Origin: Chloroflexota bacterium
GTDB taxonomy: Bacteria; Chloroflexota; Dehalococcoidia; Lucifugimonadales; Lucifugimonadaceae
DNA length: 44,069 nt
Assembly: GCA_022564545.1 (NCBI GenBank)
Contig: JADFLG010000008.1
Coordinates: 1-44,069, forward strand
Direction of reading: 5' to 3'
Positions within the stretch are counted from its first letter, which is position 1. Each line of letters starts with the position of its first letter. Below are positions 35,343-43,752 of the stretch, piece after piece. The notes under the pieces are model-generated. The model worked only from the letters and a program-made list of their open reading frames with translations. It made no database searches and was not told where the DNA came from. Made by a program: the position numbers and the translations under genes.

Positions 35343-36391
35343 TGTAGTTCCCACGGACGTTGTTTACAGTCTTGAGACGGGAACTGCCCCACCGATGCCG
35401 CCGTGTGGTCGCCTGCGATTGTAATAGTTGATGAAGCGTGGAAGCTGCTTTAGCCGCTGCTGATTAGAGTGGAATGGCCGCGAGTACGCCCACTCTTGTT
35501 GCAGTGTGCGGATGAACCGTTCCGCCTTGCCGTTGGTCTGGGGTCGGAACGGACGTGTCCGTTTGAGTTTGATTCCAAGGGCACGGGCCATATCGGCGAA
35601 AGCGTGCGAGATGTAGTTGCCGCCGTTATCGGTGAGGACGCATTTGACTGTTATCCCCTTTGCTGCAAAGAAGCCGACTACTCGTTCGAGGAACTCGGCC
35701 GTGGTCTCTCCTTTCTCATCGGCCAGCGGCTCCACGTAGACGACCCGGGAGCGGTCATCAATCGCCACGTGCATGTAGTCATAGCCGAGGGGCCGTTTGG
35801 AGTCTGGCCCCGAATGGGTTTCAGCAAATCCAGGTGCGAACCGCTTTCCGCCGCCATCGGGCACACGCGCCAGCTTCTTCACGTCCAGATGGACCATGTC
35901 TCCGGGCGAGGGGTGCTCGTAACGGACTATCTCTCGTGTCACCCGGTGCATCCACGCCAGGCGGCTGAGACCGTTGCGACTGAGTACCGCGTAGACCGTG
36001 GAGCGAGCGATTCCCAGTTGCCAGCCAATGCGGTGCGGACCCCAGCTCCGCTTGCGCCGCAGCTTGCAAATCGCCTTTACGAGCCGGGGCGACGTCAACT
36101 GCGGGCTACTGCGGGGCCTGGAGCTGCGGTCGAGTAGACCTGACTCTCCTTGTGCCCGGTACCTGCGAACGTATTTTGCAACCGTGGCGCGGGAGACTCT
36201 GAACTGCCTGGCGACCTCGGCCTGCGACCAGCCATATTCGACCTGCTGGACCATTTCAAAACGCACACGGACCGTGAGACGAGCATTACGATGCAACATG
36301 GGGGAACCTCCTGTTTTTGCTTGCGTTTCGATCACACAGCAACAACAGTGAGGTTCCCCTTCACCTGCTAACAACCTCTATGGGAACTACA
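35343..36391 (-). mobile_element. Complete IS481-family insertion sequence
   Basis: The element is 1049 bp. Its ends are 27-bp imperfect inverted repeats (35343-35369 and 36365-36391, both beginning TGTAGTTCCCA when read inward; 22 of 27 match). It is flanked by a perfect 6-bp direct repeat TCTAAC (35337-35342 and 36392-36397). It carries one transposase gene whose stop codon lies inside the left inverted repeat. Ends, duplication and intact gene suggest recent, possibly still active, insertion. Confidence 0.93.
35364..36299 (-). CDS. IS481-family DDE transposase
   Basis: A 311-residue transposase. An N-terminal helix-turn-helix (about 24-47, SQAEVARQFRVSRATVAKYV) is followed by a second helical DNA-binding region and an RNase H-like rve core. 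The catalytic triad is D139 (VHLDV), D224 (VLTDNGGNY) and E260 (NGKAERF), with 35 residues between the last two, as in the IS481/IS3-like DD35E group. The ATG at 36299 has GGAGG upstream; the frame is open to 36374 but that part lies in the terminal region. The gene is intact with no frameshift. Confidence 0.93.
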   Translation of the reverse strand: MLHRNARLTVRVRFEMVQQVEYGWSQAEVARQFRVSRATVAKYVRRYRAQGESGLLDRSSRPRSSPQLTSPRLVKAICKLRRKRSWGPHRIGWQLGIARSTVYAVLSRNGLSRLAWMHRVTREIVRYEHPSPGDMVHLDVKKLARVPDGGGKRFAPGFAETHSGPDSKRPLGYDYMHVAIDDRSRVVYVEPLADEKGETTAEFLERVVGFFAAKGITVKCVLTDNGGNYISHAFADMARALGIKLKRTRPFRPQTNGKAERFIRTLQQEWAYSRPFHSNQQRLKQLPRFINYYNRRRPHGGIGGAVPVSRL

Positions 36392-38707: not shown

Positions 38708-40255
38708 GTGGCGATTGACCAACAAACAACCGGCTCGACTTCTGGCTCTGGCTCTGGCCGAATAATGAAGACCGCCGACTCTGTATTTCACGAGCTGACT
38801 CGCACAATGTGTCCCGAGTGCAAGGACATCATCAACGGTGAGATCCACCTGACCAATGGCAAGGTCGTGTTGCGCAAGCGGTGTCCGGCCGGTTGTAACG
38901 ATGGCAAACAGTGGGAGGTTTTGATCTCACCTGACATAGAGGGATATCTCGACCTACAGCGATACAACAAGCCGGGCACCATTCCGCTCGAATTCAGCAC
39001 CGAGATCAAAGATGGTTGCCCCTACGACTGCGGCCTGTGTCCCGACCATAAGCAGCACGCGTGCCTGGTGCTCATCGAGGTAAACACCGCCTGCGACCTG
39101 GCATGTCCCACCTGCTTTGCCAACGCGGGGCCCGGCTACAACATCGACATGGACGATTGCGAGAGGATGCTCGACACATTCGTCCGTACCGAGGCCGAGC
39201 CTGAAGCCGTTCAGTTCTCAGGCGGCGAACCCACCCTTCACCCCCAACTGTTCGACTTCATGAAGCTCGCCAAGGCCAAGGGCGTGCGACACGTAATGGT
39301 CAACACAAACGGCCTGAGAATCGCAAGAGACCCCGAATGGGCGAAAGAGTTCGCCGCACTCAACCCGACGGTTTATTTCCAGTTCGACGGTTTGCGCGAC
39401 GAAACTTACATCGCGCTCCGTGGCGAACCCCTGCTGAAACAGAAACTCGAAGTCCTGGACCGGCTCGCCGAATTCGATCTCAACACGATTCTCGTCGCCG
39501 CAATAGAACGCGATGTGAACGAGGACGAAATTCCGGCGATCATCAAGTTCGGCCTGGAGCACCCGGCAGTGAGGGCGGTGATGTTCCAGCCGGTAATGCA
39601 CACGGGCCGCCACCTGAAGTTCGATCCCATGAACCGCGTGACAATACCGGAGGTGATCGAGCGGATCGATGCAGGCATGGACGGCGTATTTGTGAAGAGC
39701 GATTTCGTGCCGGTACCGTGCTGCCACCCGTCGTGCCAGTCGGTGACCTACTCGTACATCGATGAGGAGGGCGGAGTGGTGCCGCTGCCCCGTATCGTCG
39801 ATGTAGACGAGTATCTCGATTACATCACCAACCGAACGTTTCCCGACCTGGCCGGTGAGGTCCGCGAAGCGCTTGAAGGCCTCTGGTCGTCTTCTGCTAC
39901 CCCGGGCGGGAACAAGCTTGCCGATGACTTTTGTGCCGCCTGCGCCGACCTCGGACTTTTCGACGGCGAGTCGAAGGCGATCGCAAAACGCATCTTCTCG
40001 ATCTCGATCAAGGACTTTCAGGACCCCTACACGTTCGACATCAAAAAACTGATGAAGTGCTGTGTGGAGATCGCCACGCCCGACGGTCGACTGATCCCGT
40101 TTTGCGCCTACAACAACGTTGGCTACCGGGAGGAAGTTCGTGAGGAAATGATGAAGCAGCGGGCCCGGGAGCGATTCAGCCGAATCGAAGCTTCCAATTT
40201 GCTGGACAAACGAAGCGGAAAAAACGGCAAGGGCGTCCGTAAAAACGAGGTTTAA
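38708..40255 (+). CDS. tes: Radical-SAM tetraether lipid synthase (Tes/MJ0619)-type protein
   Basis: A 515-residue protein. The N-terminal Cys-rich part has C35/C38 and C59/C63 (zinc-ribbon-like), then C104, C108, C111 and C119 in a CPYDCGLCPDH block, the radical-SAM cluster motif C129-x3-C133-x2-C136 (ACDLACPTCFA) and the SAM-binding SGGEP (172-175). The C-terminal part has further Cys (CCHPSC, CAAC, KCC) and the PDGRLIPFCAYNN block. Order and motifs match the archaeal Tes family, which couples two lipid tails by C-C bond formation to make membrane-spanning tetraethers. Bacterial homologues exist; their products are largely unproven. GTG at 38708 has TAGGAG nine bases upstream. It leads a tight three-gene unit with a SRPBCC protein and a methyltransferase. 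The gene symbol reflects family, not a tested function. Confidence 0.88.
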   Translation: MAIDQQTTGSTSGSGSGRIMKTADSVFHELTRTMCPECKDIINGEIHLTNGKVVLRKRCPAGCNDGKQWEVLISPDIEGYLDLQRYNKPGTIPLEFSTEIKDGCPYDCGLCPDHKQHACLVLIEVNTACDLACPTCFANAGPGYNIDMDDCERMLDTFVRTEAEPEAVQFSGGEPTLHPQLFDFMKLAKAKGVRHVMVNTNGLRIARDPEWAKEFAALNPTVYFQFDGLRDETYIALRGEPLLKQKLEVLDRLAEFDLNTILVAAIERDVNEDEIPAIIKFGLEHPAVRAVMFQPVMHTGRHLKFDPMNRVTIPEVIERIDAGMDGVFVKSDFVPVPCCHPSCQSVTYSYIDEEGGVVPLPRIVDVDEYLDYITNRTFPDLAGEVREALEGLWSSSATPGGNKLADDFCAACADLGLFDGESKAIAKRIFSISIKDFQDPYTFDIKKLMKCCVEIATPDGRLIPFCAYNNVGYREEVREEMMKQRARERFSRIEASNLLDKRSGKNGKGVRKNEV

Positions 40256-40260
40256 GTCCG

Positions 40261-40860
40261 GTGGCGCACATACCAATCGACCTCCCCGACCAGTCAATAC
40301 ACATACACGCGCAGCGCGAGCTGGCGTTCGAGGTCATTTCTGCTTTAGGAGGCGGTGCCAGCGGCATGGCCAGTGCTGGCGACATGGCCGGCGGCACCGG
40401 CGCCAGGAAACAGAGCCCAACGAGTGTCGTTCTGGAAGAAGACGGTGACCGAATGTTGGTTGAGTTCCGTTCCCACGTGAAGATTGGGCCGATCTCGACC
40501 ACGTGGAAAACGACGGAATGGGTCCTGCCAGAAAAGCCGGTGTCGATCAGCTTTGAGCTGGTGCCAGATCACGGGATCATCACCGGTGGGTTGAGGCAGC
40601 TTACCGATCACTTCGATTTCGAAAAACAGGGCAACTGCACAGTGCTGACATATAAAAGCCGCTTCGGCATCCGCTGGTCAGTGGGGGGTTGGCTGCTGGG
40701 TAAGGCGCTGATCGGGCCGATCATCAAAAAACACATGATCGAGCACCTCGGAGAAGTCAAAGAAATGATAGAAAGTCGGGCCGGCCGGAGTCGGCTGTAT
40801 CCGCAACTTGAATGTGACGAAGGCGACGAAGATGTTGAGGTCGGGAAGGATGATGGTTAA
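40261..40860 (+). CDS. SRPBCC (START-like) lipid-binding-fold protein
   Basis: A 199-residue protein that fits the SRPBCC/polyketide-cyclase fold: first strand IHIHAQRELAFEVISA, then strands MLVEFRSHV, TTWKTTEWVLPEKPVSISFEL, LRQLTDHFDFEKQGNCTVLTYKSRFGI and the long C-terminal helix (about 140-172, IGPIIKKHMIEHLGEVKEMIE). An Ala/Gly/Met-rich insertion at about 28-52 is unusual. The acidic tail is probably disordered. These folds have a deep hydrophobic pocket for lipids or polyketides. Five bases separate it from the Tes-like stop and the next ATG follows its stop directly, so it is co-translated with both. Carrying or presenting a lipid to the radical-SAM enzyme is an inference. GTG start has only a weak site. 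Confidence 0.72.
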   Translation: MAHIPIDLPDQSIHIHAQRELAFEVISALGGGASGMASAGDMAGGTGARKQSPTSVVLEEDGDRMLVEFRSHVKIGPISTTWKTTEWVLPEKPVSISFELVPDHGIITGGLRQLTDHFDFEKQGNCTVLTYKSRFGIRWSVGGWLLGKALIGPIIKKHMIEHLGEVKEMIESRAGRSRLYPQLECDEGDEDVEVGKDDG

Positions 40861-41676
40861 ATGGCTGTCCAGGTCAACGATCTCGATGCCGCGCCGGTGG
40901 GTGCCTGCTGCTCGATCATCTACAGCCACCCGCTCGCGACCTGGCTAATCGGCGAGTCGTTTCACCCCGGTGGACTGGCCCTGACTGACGAACTGGCCCG
41001 CCTGGCTGAACTTGGTCCAGGCAAGCGATTACTGGACGCCGGGTGCGGCCGGGGGGCAAGCACGGTCCACCTGGCGGAGTCGACCGGGTGCGAGGCGGTG
41101 GGCCTTACGCTTGAATCGGACGGCGTCGAGCGGGGGCGACAGCTCGCCGAGGCCAGAGGTGTCCAGGACAGGGTGACCTTCGTGCAGGACGACATCATGC
41201 ATATGGATACAGCCACTGGCATTGGCGGGTTTGACGTGGTGCTGATGGAGTGTGTCTTATCGACGCTTGAGCAGAAGCCAGAATCGTTGCGGCAGTTGTA
41301 CCGGATCACGAAGCCCGGCGGATATATCGCCATTACGGACGTGACGGTTTCCGGAGAGCTTCCGCGGCAACTGCAGGGCTCGATCGGCGCGGCGCTCTGC
41401 ATGGCCGATGCACGAGACCTTGACGAGTACATGAGCATGGTTGAAGAGGCCGGGTTCAGGGTCAGGGAGTACCGCTCGGCGAAAGAGGCGGTTCACCAGC
41501 TGATCAAGAAGATCGGCACCCGACTGATGATCGCCGATGCCGCGATCGGGCTCGGGAGCCTCGTGGTCGACCGGTCGATGATAGTTGAGGCACGCGATTC
41601 GCTGAAGCTGGCAAATAAACTCGTCGATGATGGAACGCTGGGTTACGGCCTTATCGTCGCCCAACGGGTCGGGTGA
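40861..41676 (+). CDS. Class I SAM-dependent methyltransferase
   Basis: A 271-residue Rossmann methyltransferase. Motif I is LLDAGCGRGAS (about 57-67), an acidic residue after strand two is in GLTLES, motif II region is VTFVQDDIMHMD, then FDVVLMECVLSTLEQKPESLRQLYRITKPGGYIAITDVT. This order resembles the UbiE/Methyltransf_11 group, which methylates small molecules and lipids. The N-terminus has a Cys pair (C16-C17) and a SFHPGG block, typical of a subfamily I cannot name. ATG at 40861 follows the previous stop without a gap and has GGAAGGA upstream. In this operon it could methylate a lipid head group or tail, which is inference. A repeat element follows the stop. Confidence 0.85.
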   Translation: MAVQVNDLDAAPVGACCSIIYSHPLATWLIGESFHPGGLALTDELARLAELGPGKRLLDAGCGRGASTVHLAESTGCEAVGLTLESDGVERGRQLAEARGVQDRVTFVQDDIMHMDTATGIGGFDVVLMECVLSTLEQKPESLRQLYRITKPGGYIAITDVTVSGELPRQLQGSIGAALCMADARDLDEYMSMVEEAGFRVREYRSAKEAVHQLIKKIGTRLMIADAAIGLGSLVVDRSMIVEARDSLKLANKLVDDGTLGYGLIVAQRVG

Positions 41677-41694
41677 CCGGGGCGAAGATTTATT

Positions 41695-41766
41695 GTCATC
41701 CTGCACTTAATTCGGGATCTCCCGCCCATTTCGCCACCAACCGTGCTGGATCGAGTTTGCAATGAC
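41695..41766. repeat. GTCATYCTG-ended intergenic inverted repeat, copy 2
   Basis: The element begins GTCATCCTGCACTTAATTCGG and ends in the reverse complement of GTCATTGCAAA. It is related to 14672-14746 by ends and size and lies between the converging methyltransferase and plsY genes. Confidence 0.55.
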
Positions 41767-41810
41767 AGGACTCCACCCGTTCGCAAGCCCAGATACCGAA
41801 CCAAAACCCG

Positions 41811-42443
41811 CTACTCGAGCAGCCCGACTTTGCGCCAGTTGCGGTCCCGAAAGGCCAGTCTTAACTCACGATATTCGCGTGCGAAATGGGTTGCGACGAC
41901 CAGCACGCTCAACACCAGGCAGAGCACAATGTCCAGTCTCTCGGCCCCGGACCAGATAAGCAGGGCATTGATGGCGATAATTCCCGCGCCAAACGCCCAC
42001 ACCCAGCTTCGAGTGACGTAGTACACGGCAAACACAAGCGGACCGACCATCACCGATATCACCGGGGCCATTGCCAGTGAAATACCGAAGATAACGGCGA
42101 CGCCCTTGCCGCCTTTGAAGCCGATATATGGCGACCAGTTGTGCCCGGCGGTCACTGCGAGCGCCATGGCAAACAGGGTGTAGTCTGACACCCCGGCCAG
42201 TCTTCCCAGGCCAATGATTGCTGCGCCCTTTGCAGCATCGGCGGCGAGGACCAGCATCCCGGTTCGCATTCCAAGCGTTCGAACAGCGTTGACCGTTCCG
42301 ACGTTGCCGTTTCCGTAATTCCGAATGTCGGTGCCGTTCTGAATCCTGCTACCAAGGTAGGCAGCAGGAATCCCGCCGATCAGGTAAGCAACAACGACCA
42401 GCAGAGCGGCGGTCAGGGTTTCAGATAGGAGTTCTGGCGACAT
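41811..42443 (-). CDS. plsY: Acyl-phosphate glycerol-3-phosphate acyltransferase PlsY
   Basis: A 210-residue membrane enzyme with five to six TM helices. Conserved motifs are IPAAYLGSR, the GNGNVGTVNAVRTLG glycerol-3-phosphate loop and GHNWSPYIGFKGGKGVA. PlsY moves an acyl group from acyl-phosphate to the sn-1 position of glycerol-3-phosphate, the first step of phospholipid synthesis at the cytoplasmic membrane. ATG at 42443 gives the usual length; its ribosome site is weak. It converges on the Tes/SRPBCC/methyltransferase unit and supports a lipid theme for this area, although plsY is also a housekeeping gene and co-location may be chance. The last residues (REYRELRLAFRDRNW) form a basic cytosolic tail. 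Confidence 0.94.
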   Translation of the reverse strand: MSPELLSETLTAALLVVVAYLIGGIPAAYLGSRIQNGTDIRNYGNGNVGTVNAVRTLGMRTGMLVLAADAAKGAAIIGLGRLAGVSDYTLFAMALAVTAGHNWSPYIGFKGGKGVAVIFGISLAMAPVISVMVGPLVFAVYYVTRSWVWAFGAGIIAINALLIWSGAERLDIVLCLVLSVLVVATHFAREYRELRLAFRDRNWRKVGLLE

Positions 42444-42600: not shown

Positions 42601-43752
42601 ATGAAGCGAATCATCATTTGTTGTGATGGCACAGCGAACAAGCCCGATGCCGAATACGTCACGAACGTCGTAAAGGTCGCTCGCGGGGTTGCCGGAATGT
42701 CTGCCGACGGCGTGACGGCGCAGGTCGTGTTCTACGACCAGGGAGTCGGTTCGCACGGCCTCAAGGACTCCATTACCGGCGGGGCGCTCGGGCATGGTCT
42801 GGCAAAGAATATCCACGAGGCGTACAGGTTCATCGTCCTCAACTATTCGCCCGGCGACGAGCTGTTCCTGTTCGGGTTCAGCCGTGGCGCGTTCACTGCC
42901 CGGAGCCTGTCTGGACTGATCAGCAAGTTCGGCGTGCTCGATGCAACCGAAGTCCAGCAGATCCGCCCGACGATGGACCGGTACCGCGACGGTCGGTCGC
43001 GCTCAGACGCGAAGACTCATGCAGTAAGAATCAAGTTTCTCGGGGTATGGGACACCGTCGGCGCAATGGGTGTCCAGACAAACCGGATCGCCGGCACACT
43101 GGGTTGGTGGACCGGCAGCGCTCTGGGAAGTGCCGCACGCGCCTTCAGCTGGATTCCAAAACGCTGGACCCCCGACTATTTACGGCGGAAGTTCGCAGGC
43201 ACAGGGAGGTCGGTCAGCAAAAGACTCAGGCTTCCGAAAGGAAAATATGCGTTCCTGAACGCGACTCTGTCCGAACAGGTCGAGAACGGCTATCACGCGG
43301 TAGCAATAGACGAGCGTCGACCGATATTCGACGTGGTCCTCTGGAACAAAGAACCCGACGCTGATCAGCATATTGAGCAGGTCTGGTTTTCAGGAGTTCA
43401 CACAGAAGTGGGCGGCGGAAGTTCCAACGAGCACACCTCAGCGATAGCCCTCGAATGGATGTCGGCCAGAGCCAGGGGCCACGGGATGGCCTTCACGAAA
43501 GCGTTCGACGACGACGTAGACAAGTTGCTTGCCGCAGCCAAACAGCCCATCAGCGGGTCGCCCCCCGGACTTTGGCGCATCGCGGGACGCCTGTGGCGCA
43601 CGATTGGCTCGAGCGGCACCCAAACCGAGAGCATTCACCCCAGCGCCATCAGCCGGTATTGCGACCCGCAATCCAAATACGCACCGCCAAACCTGAAGTC
43701 GTACATGGACTCGAACGGGATCGACTGCCCGCCAGATGAAGACAGCAATTAG
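42601..43752 (+). CDS. DUF2235-family alpha/beta hydrolase (Tle1-like fold)
   Basis: A 383-residue protein of the DUF2235 type. The opening IIICCDGTANKP is characteristic, the nucleophile elbow is GFSRGAF (S94), the acidic residue is probably in FLGVWDTVGAMG and the catalytic His in WFSGVHTEVGGG. DUF2235 proteins include type VI secretion phospholipase effectors such as Tle1, but many others are uncharacterised. There is no signal peptide and no type VI secretion gene here, so an intracellular lipase or esterase is more likely. ATG at 42601 follows GGGGTGG. Its neighbours are plsY and the Tes-like unit, so lipid or acyl turnover would fit, as an inference. The C-terminus is acidic and probably disordered. 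Confidence 0.88.
   Translation: MKRIIICCDGTANKPDAEYVTNVVKVARGVAGMSADGVTAQVVFYDQGVGSHGLKDSITGGALGHGLAKNIHEAYRFIVLNYSPGDELFLFGFSRGAFTARSLSGLISKFGVLDATEVQQIRPTMDRYRDGRSRSDAKTHAVRIKFLGVWDTVGAMGVQTNRIAGTLGWWTGSALGSAARAFSWIPKRWTPDYLRRKFAGTGRSVSKRLRLPKGKYAFLNATLSEQVENGYHAVAIDERRPIFDVVLWNKEPDADQHIEQVWFSGVHTEVGGGSSNEHTSAIALEWMSARARGHGMAFTKAFDDDVDKLLAAAKQPISGSPPGLWRIAGRLWRTIGSSGTQTESIHPSAISRYCDPQSKYAPPNLKSYMDSNGIDCPPDEDSN

Follow-up and report, generated by a model that had tools for sequence, protein, structure and literature searches.

The radical S-adenosylmethionine (SAM) enzyme Tes, which couples lipid tails in archaea and was solved structurally as MJ0619, abstracts a hydrogen from a lipid tail and then forms a carbon-sulfur bond to its C-terminal (auxiliary) cluster; a thiolated lipid was observed with Tes under limiting SAM (PMC9433317). 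Homologs of this enzyme are also reported from bacteria, 456 of them by Zeng et al. in 2022 (PMC8941075), while a Black Sea study of 2025 found them in 281 bacterial metagenome-assembled genomes (MAGs) and, as printed, in 111 of 684 Chloroflexota MAGs (PMC11868695). Such homologs have served to single out candidate producers of climate-proxy lipids that span the membrane (PMC11868695, PMC10087280). Here we describe a gene for a Tes-like radical-SAM protein and its partner gene for a methyltransferase (MT) in a Chloroflexota bacterium (assembly GCA_022564545.1). The stretch analyzed, hereafter the window, is the whole 44,069-nucleotide contig JADFLG010000008.1 (G000:C118 in our collection), part of a 2.9-Mb draft genome in 195 contigs.

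The published bacterial homologs belong to the same broad family as the window protein and include Chloroflexota and Acidobacteriota, and the text available for these accounts does not describe MT or Lgt-like partners. The initial annotation of the window knew of no described system with this gene set. For the Tes homologs themselves this has to be corrected, as those of bacteria, Chloroflexota included, are in print (PMC8941075, PMC11868695). For the pairing, we found no published account of a Tes-methyltransferase or Tes-Lgt pairing in mostly open-access literature with few preprints and without supplements, which is weak evidence of novelty.

A recurring pair of Tes-like and methyltransferase genes

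In the window, the Tes-like gene, an SRPBCC/START-like gene and the MT gene are tightly packed on the plus strand with gaps of 5 bp and 0 bp, and a PlsY-like gene converges on them from the minus strand. The gene coordinates, both gaps, the convergent plsY and the radical-SAM motifs quoted in the initial annotation were all confirmed, and its assignment to the Tes superfamily, the operon structure and the lipid-related neighborhood were supported.

We gathered loci from Chloroflexota genomes and from named genomes, searched their surroundings with profiles for the recurring neighbors and removed nine repeats of the same genome. From the named genomes the best 80 of 585 relatives were kept, in order of similarity to the window protein, and the class counts describe this capped sample. 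Loci whose Tes-like and MT genes are no more than 800 nt apart were assigned to class I and those with an Lgt-like gene as partner to class II. Among the resulting 132 loci, 65 fall into class I, 59 into class II and eight into neither, several of the eight lying at contig ends. The MT gene is downstream of the Tes-like gene in 64 of the 65 class I loci and upstream only in a TrsS locus (L104). Class I extends over Chloroflexota, Acidobacteriota, Actinomycetota and other bacterial MAGs, and over archaea, with two Thaumarchaeota MAGs, one Heimdallarchaeota MAG and one Methanococcoides MAG; the named strain Ktedonobacter racemifer DSM 44963 (L119) carries the pair as well. Among the best 80 of 585 relatives, those closest to the window locus are Chloroflexota MAGs.

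The three-gene order that the initial annotation had put forward thus holds in part. The order of radical-SAM gene and MT gene is kept well beyond Chloroflexota (64 of 132 loci), whereas only nine of 132 loci, the nine rows of the window's own clade, have an SRPBCC gene separating the two, and for that reason we rejected the SRPBCC gene as a core member. Two enzymes make up the conserved module, a Tes-like protein of the radical-SAM kind and an MT of DVU_1556/ArsM type.

The two genes also occur together at the level of genomes. All 34 Chloroflexota genomes with the MT (E 1e-50, of 400 sampled, apparently the same sample) hold a Tes-like gene, the class-I-like radical-SAM gene being present only as a contig-end fragment in two of them (G179 and G369) and on a separate contig from the MT gene in a few (e.g. 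G444). At least two Chloroflexota genomes (G227 and G328, both at contig ends) have the radical-SAM gene or a piece of it without an MT at E 1e-50. Pairwise distances among the radical-SAM proteins track those among the MTs (Mantel r 0.79, n=60), a correlation that none of 2000 permutations equaled. A class-I-level homolog (51-52%) was found in 6 of 247 genomes of Acidobacteria, with an MT at five of the six loci, one of the five being the genome of L127 again. Within the window's genus the radical-SAM gene is patchy, a copy of at least 88% identity occurring in 4 of 19 genomes, G000 counted. A second class I MT copy (278 bits) lies away from the pair in one genome (G418:C7:2513559-2514104).

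Canonical Tes is also encoded in two thaumarchaeal MAGs with the class I pair (G454 and G455), where it scores 690 and 698 bits and lies on contigs other than those of the pair. This coexistence indicates that the pair is probably not their GDGT (glycerol dialkyl glycerol tetraether) synthase, and synthesis of membrane-spanning lipids, as first proposed for the window, does not follow from the gene set. More generally, the bacterial Tes homologs fall by their partner genes into at least two classes that are not Tes, one with an MT and one with an Lgt-like partner. Together with the occurrence of the MT-linked class beside real Tes in the two archaeal MAGs, this makes it unsafe to treat all homologs as tail couplers.

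Relation of the two enzymes to Tes, TrsS and ArsM

By sequence, the radical-SAM protein is a member of the Tes superfamily without being Tes proper. Its best solved relative is MJ0619 (PDB 7TOL; phmmer E 8e-80), with which it shares the domain order, the rubredoxin-like iron site, three sets of [4Fe-4S] cysteines and six SAM-contact residues; the latter (G145, Y195, D199, R210, Q268 and R275) are identical in all 62 class I rows. The motifs C129-x3-C133-x2-C136, C104-PYD-C108-GL-C111 and PDGRLIPFCAYN were verified. In the alignment, every cysteine ligand of MJ0619 is kept at the rubredoxin site and at the [Fe4S4]N, RS and C-terminal clusters, as these ligands were defined in the structure paper (PMC9433317). 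The fourth rubredoxin ligand, His36 of MJ0619, is not kept, its column being occupied by G66, and C63 in a nearby insert may replace it; a glycine at this column together with C63 is also found in five of the nine rows of the window's clade.

The initial annotation had called the protein a full-length Tes/MJ0619-type protein. A search with the hidden Markov models of NCBIfam gives 319.6 bits for Tes (NF045702, cut-off 450) and 327.4 bits for TrsS (NF045646, cut-off 490), both short of the cut-off. In a tree of 65 rows, a branch with SH-like approximate likelihood ratio test (SH-aLRT) support of 98 separates three canonical Tes from the 62 others; our trees are quick ones with SH-aLRT support only, few canonical Tes and long branches for L104, L187 and L149. 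The window protein has K435 and I455 in the columns of Tes Met439 and Tyr459, where each of the three canonical Tes examined has M and Y. Both residues are reported as fully conserved in 1,000 archaeal homologs (PMC9433317). Given the missed cut-off, the position outside the Tes clade and the absence of these two residues, canonical Tes was rejected.

The window protein further differs from Tes in having an MT partner and additional cysteines. Every one of the 62 class I rows has C119, C338 and C412; among the 58 bacterial ones, C409 is likewise invariant and C339 occurs in 54. MJ0619 has none of the five. Likewise C119, C338, C409 and C412 are missing from the three canonical Tes checked, two of which have C339; C119 and C338 occur in class II too. 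The C-terminal region of the window protein contains eight cysteines, four of MJ0619 type and four extra, and by this count the extra ones may suffice in principle for a fourth [4Fe-4S] cluster. A second tree, of 131 rows with those below 380 aa excluded, places the window inside a starred clade of nine loci. In the same tree, ten Lgt-linked rows form a group surrounded by MT-linked ones, a pattern suggestive of partner exchange.

The MT, initially described as UbiE-like, is by its profile matches closer to the DVU_1556 and ArsM families. It scores 130.1 bits with the DVU_1556 methyltransferase model (NF045667, cut-off 155) and 81.3 bits with the arsenite methyltransferase model (NF008823, cut-off 263), in each case below the cut-off. 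A UbiE-like quinone methylase was rejected, since Ubie_methyltran is the sixth Pfam match and the UbiE/MenG models score far below their cut-offs. Cysteines were counted in 64 non-duplicate homologs longer than 200 aa, in window numbering. The invariant C131 and C180 align onto two cysteines of a true ArsM (L187), whose columns were equated to C174 and C224 of CmArsM by motif and spacing, not by structure. The two confirmed arsenic sites of human AS3MT are C156 and C206, and the arsenic ligands of CmArsM are C72, C174 and C224 (PMC3877260). The spacing is nearly equal (49 in the window MT and 50 in human AS3MT), and an N-terminal pair, C16-C17, adds to the likeness. The third ligand, CmArsM C72, is without a counterpart in the MT, and the C16-C17 pair might stand in for it. 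Cysteines of ArsM type do not point to a plain methylase of head or tail groups, which was the first interpretation of the enzyme.

Two loci link these families directly. In L104, the gene for a true DVU_1556-family MT (183 bits, cut-off 155) comes first and that for a true TrsS (543 bits, cut-off 490) second. As in the window, a Tes-like radical-SAM gene there adjoins an MT of the same wider family, and TrsS and DVU_1556 are the best NCBIfam matches of the two window genes. The C131/C180 pair is common to ArsM and the MT of L104. However, the MT is upstream in L104 and downstream in the window, both window proteins score under the cut-offs, and L104 lacks C338 in its TrsS and the C16-C17 pair in its MT. 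In L187, from the Methanococcoides MAG (L187:5971-8270), the Tes-like gene overlaps a true ArsM gene by 4 bases (357 bits, cut-off 263). Taken together, the class I, L104 and L187 pairings couple Tes-like genes to ArsM-related MTs in three arrangements. In four acidobacterial loci (L220, L222, L223 and L225), Tes-family frames each contain one in-frame TGA and are possibly TrsS-type selenoproteins.

Proposed lipid-tail chemistry and its alternatives

The recurrence of the gene pair across bacteria and some archaea suggests that it serves an uncharacterized modification of lipid tails and not the lipid pathway of archaea. As the reading that best accounts for the observations, we tentatively propose, at somewhat less than even confidence, a two-enzyme module in which the radical-SAM protein would functionalize a lipid tail and the MT would methylate a soft atom, sulfur or arsenic. 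As Tes does, the Tes-like enzyme would attack a long alkyl chain at an unactivated carbon, abstracting a hydrogen and forming a bond there, and a class I enzyme could stop at the carbon-sulfur stage. In the two least certain steps, the new group would be kept as a soft atom, either sulfur from the cluster or arsenic, which the MT would hold between C131, C180 and the C16-C17 pair and methylate. The product would be a tail-modified lipid, not a GDGT. It is unlikely, though conceivable, that the pair makes a new class of lipids in which an unactivated tail carbon bears sulfur or arsenic and the MT methylates this atom, giving methylthio- or methylarsenic lipids, and that the radical-SAM protein may hold the fourth [4Fe-4S] cluster. 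If true, this would add a new pair of enzymes acting on such tails, common to soil and marine bacteria and some archaea. The pair is a directly testable enzyme candidate for lipid modification in the named strain K. racemifer.

Several observations weigh against this proposal. Class I MTs have no cysteine at the region of the third arsenic ligand. Phosphoethanolamine methyltransferases (PEAMTs) are the top PDB sequence matches of the MT profile, with ArsM seventh and eighth, and ArsM is not among the 50 Foldseek matches listed for the MT model. On the radical-SAM side, conservation of the SAM contacts is incomplete in class I: S271 and T273 are not retained throughout, and 49 of 62 rows have alanine for T238. 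The lipid-gene neighbors are concentrated in few lineages, and in a tally of 107 class I neighbor proteins the 25 most frequent Pfam families include none for arsenic resistance. The loss of Lgt motifs in class II partners, described below, lends no support to thiol chemistry. The thaumarchaeal coexistence with canonical Tes rests on MAGs, in which a contig may be misbinned.

The radical-SAM protein could instead join two acyl or alkyl tails, as in the idea of tail coupling for bacterial branched GDGTs (brGDGTs), with the MT methylating the head group or tail and the SRPBCC and PlsY proteins serving the same lipids. We consider this rather unlikely. It would fit the Tes homology with all cysteine ligands kept and the lipid-gene neighbors, and bacterial Tes homologs have been proposed for brGDGTs by others (PMC8941075; PMC10087280). 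Because the M439A, Y459F and Y459L variants of Tes are reported to remain active (PMC9433317), the loss of those residues is compatible with coupling too. However, coupling leaves the ArsM-type cysteines of the MT unexplained, the radical-SAM protein lies outside the clade of canonical Tes and has C119, C338, C409 and C412, which the three canonical Tes do not, the two thaumarchaeal MAGs carry the pair beside canonical Tes, and a different enzyme, Mss, has been described for tail coupling in bacteria (PMC13274423). The ArsM-type cysteines, and the true ArsM beside the Tes-like gene in L187, would be accounted for if the two enzymes were an organoarsenical or other metalloid pair not linked to membrane lipids, like ArsM with radical-SAM ArsS or ArsL. 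Precedents for such a pair exist: ArsL is a radical-SAM enzyme, the arsQML genes reportedly feature in a study of arsinothricin, and ArsS of arsenosugars, present as an NCBIfam model name, is paired with ArsM. We nevertheless regard this as quite improbable, since ars genes are not among the commonest class I neighbors, lipid genes take their place in some lineages, and Tes binds long alkyl chains (PMC9433317).

Very improbable, in our view, is that the MT is an ordinary PEAMT-like N-methyltransferase of phospholipid head groups that is merely co-transcribed with the radical-SAM gene. PEAMTs lead the PDB sequence matches, as mentioned above, and are also found among the Foldseek fold matches of the MT model (AlphaFold pLDDT 89, from an alignment of the window with 28 of 36 MT candidates). 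Against this, in the alignment the column of a PEAMT aspartate, which we take to be a catalytic residue, holds an invariant cysteine in the MT, and the C131/C180 pair is held in common with ArsM and the DVU_1556-family MT of L104.

Neighboring genes and Lgt-linked homologs

Table 1. Positions of the genes and sites discussed; positions are those of the window unless a locus is named, and residue numbers refer to the protein concerned.
Feature	Position	Strand	Basis
Tes-like radical-SAM protein, 515 aa, GTG start	38708..40255	+	MJ0619/7tol E 8e-80; below the NCBIfam cut-offs for TrsS (327 bits) and Tes (320 bits)
Rubredoxin-like iron site: C35, C38, C59 and possibly C63	38810..38896	+	alignment to MJ0619 C9/C12/C33/H36
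N-terminal [4Fe-4S] site C104, C108, C111, H114	39017..39049	+	aligned to MJ0619 C73, C77, C80, H83
Radical-SAM cluster C129-x3-C133-x2-C136	39092..39115	+	Pfam scan, MJ0619 alignment
C-terminal cluster region: MJ0619-type C343, C451, C452, C466 and extra C338, C339, C409, C412	39719..40105	+	MJ0619 alignment
SRPBCC/START-like protein, 199 aa, lineage-specific operon member	40261..40860	+	predicted fold
SAM-dependent methyltransferase (MT), 271 aa, DVU_1556/ArsM-related	40861..41676	+	NF045667 130 bits, NF008823 81 bits
N-terminal Cys pair C16-C17 of MT	40906..40911	+	C16 in 61/64, C17 in 63/64 homologs
Invariant C131 of MT (ArsM C174 / human AS3MT C156 equivalent)	41251..41253	+	64/64; alignment with ArsM of L187
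Invariant C180 of MT (ArsM C224 / human AS3MT C206 equivalent)	41398..41400	+	64/64; alignment with ArsM of L187
PlsY-like glycerol-3-phosphate acyltransferase, 210 aa	41811..42443	-	G3P_acyltransf 118 bits (over cut-off)
Lgt-linked loci	L151-L189 (e.g. L176:5268-6029, L159, L180) and L085-L103		neighbor profile scan

Four Pfam domains score above their cut-offs in the genes of the window (Radical_SAM 67, Zn_ribbon_HMPTM 34, Methyltransf_31 77 and G3P_acyltransf 118 bits), and the PlsY-like protein reaches 109.7 bits with TIGR00023, under its cut-off of 137.2. The SRPBCC protein is probably a carrier of a hydrophobic ligand. It scores 23.7 bits with Polyketide_cyc2, below the cut-off of 27.4, and its AlphaFold model has a pLDDT of 69 from an alignment of five sequences (the window and four others). 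The model has Foldseek matches to polyketide cyclases, CoxG and START proteins with E down to 2e-6 and query TM scores of 0.3-0.6 among the matches listed, in agreement with a helix-grip fold. An SRPBCC-like match is located just upstream in L058.

Within 6 kb, class I and class II differ in CDP-alcohol phosphatidyltransferase (9/65 versus 0/59), plsY (8/65 versus 0/59) and a flavin adenine dinucleotide (FAD)-dependent flavoprotein of disulfide-reductase type (21/65 versus 1/59), counts that come from related loci and are not independent events. The two disulfide-reductase-type flavoproteins tested reach no NCBIfam cut-off among the matches listed. The tally of neighbor families took 148 of 292 candidate open reading frames (ORFs), at most three per locus, and used 107; the 41 dropped by hand include many suspected wrong frames and also real genes, the plsY of the window's genus among them. 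An arsenic operon was sought, and none was seen in this tally of class I neighbor families. Small CxxC proteins adjoin the Tes-MT pair in thaumarchaeal loci (L141:3414-3773 and L143:3458-3769) and lie upstream of the pair in a Dehalococcoidia locus (L114:647-1060); those of L141 and L114 have no NCBIfam match at E 1e-12.

In class II, the partner of the Tes-like gene is a divergent Lgt-like gene (PF01790). It comes after the Tes-like gene in Planctomycetota; in Bacteroidota, Paenibacillaceae, Cyanobacteriota and Chloroflexota it lies shortly before the Tes-like gene or overlaps it. In 15 class II genomes of Chloroflexota that were checked, two to six Lgt matches were counted per genome, and the Tes-linked one scored lower than the top match. 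Among 14 class II Lgt-like partners, HGG[LFY] was not found in any and RxGN is missing from nine; we take both to be motifs of Lgt.

Two further ORFs lie near the pair in the window. Beside plsY, at 42601-43752, a protein with a Tle1-like phospholipase domain of the type VI secretion system (T6SS) is encoded (PF09994, 239 bits), and on the minus strand at 35364-36374 an ORF resembles, by eye, an insertion sequence (IS) transposase with a helix-turn-helix (HTH) and an integrase core.

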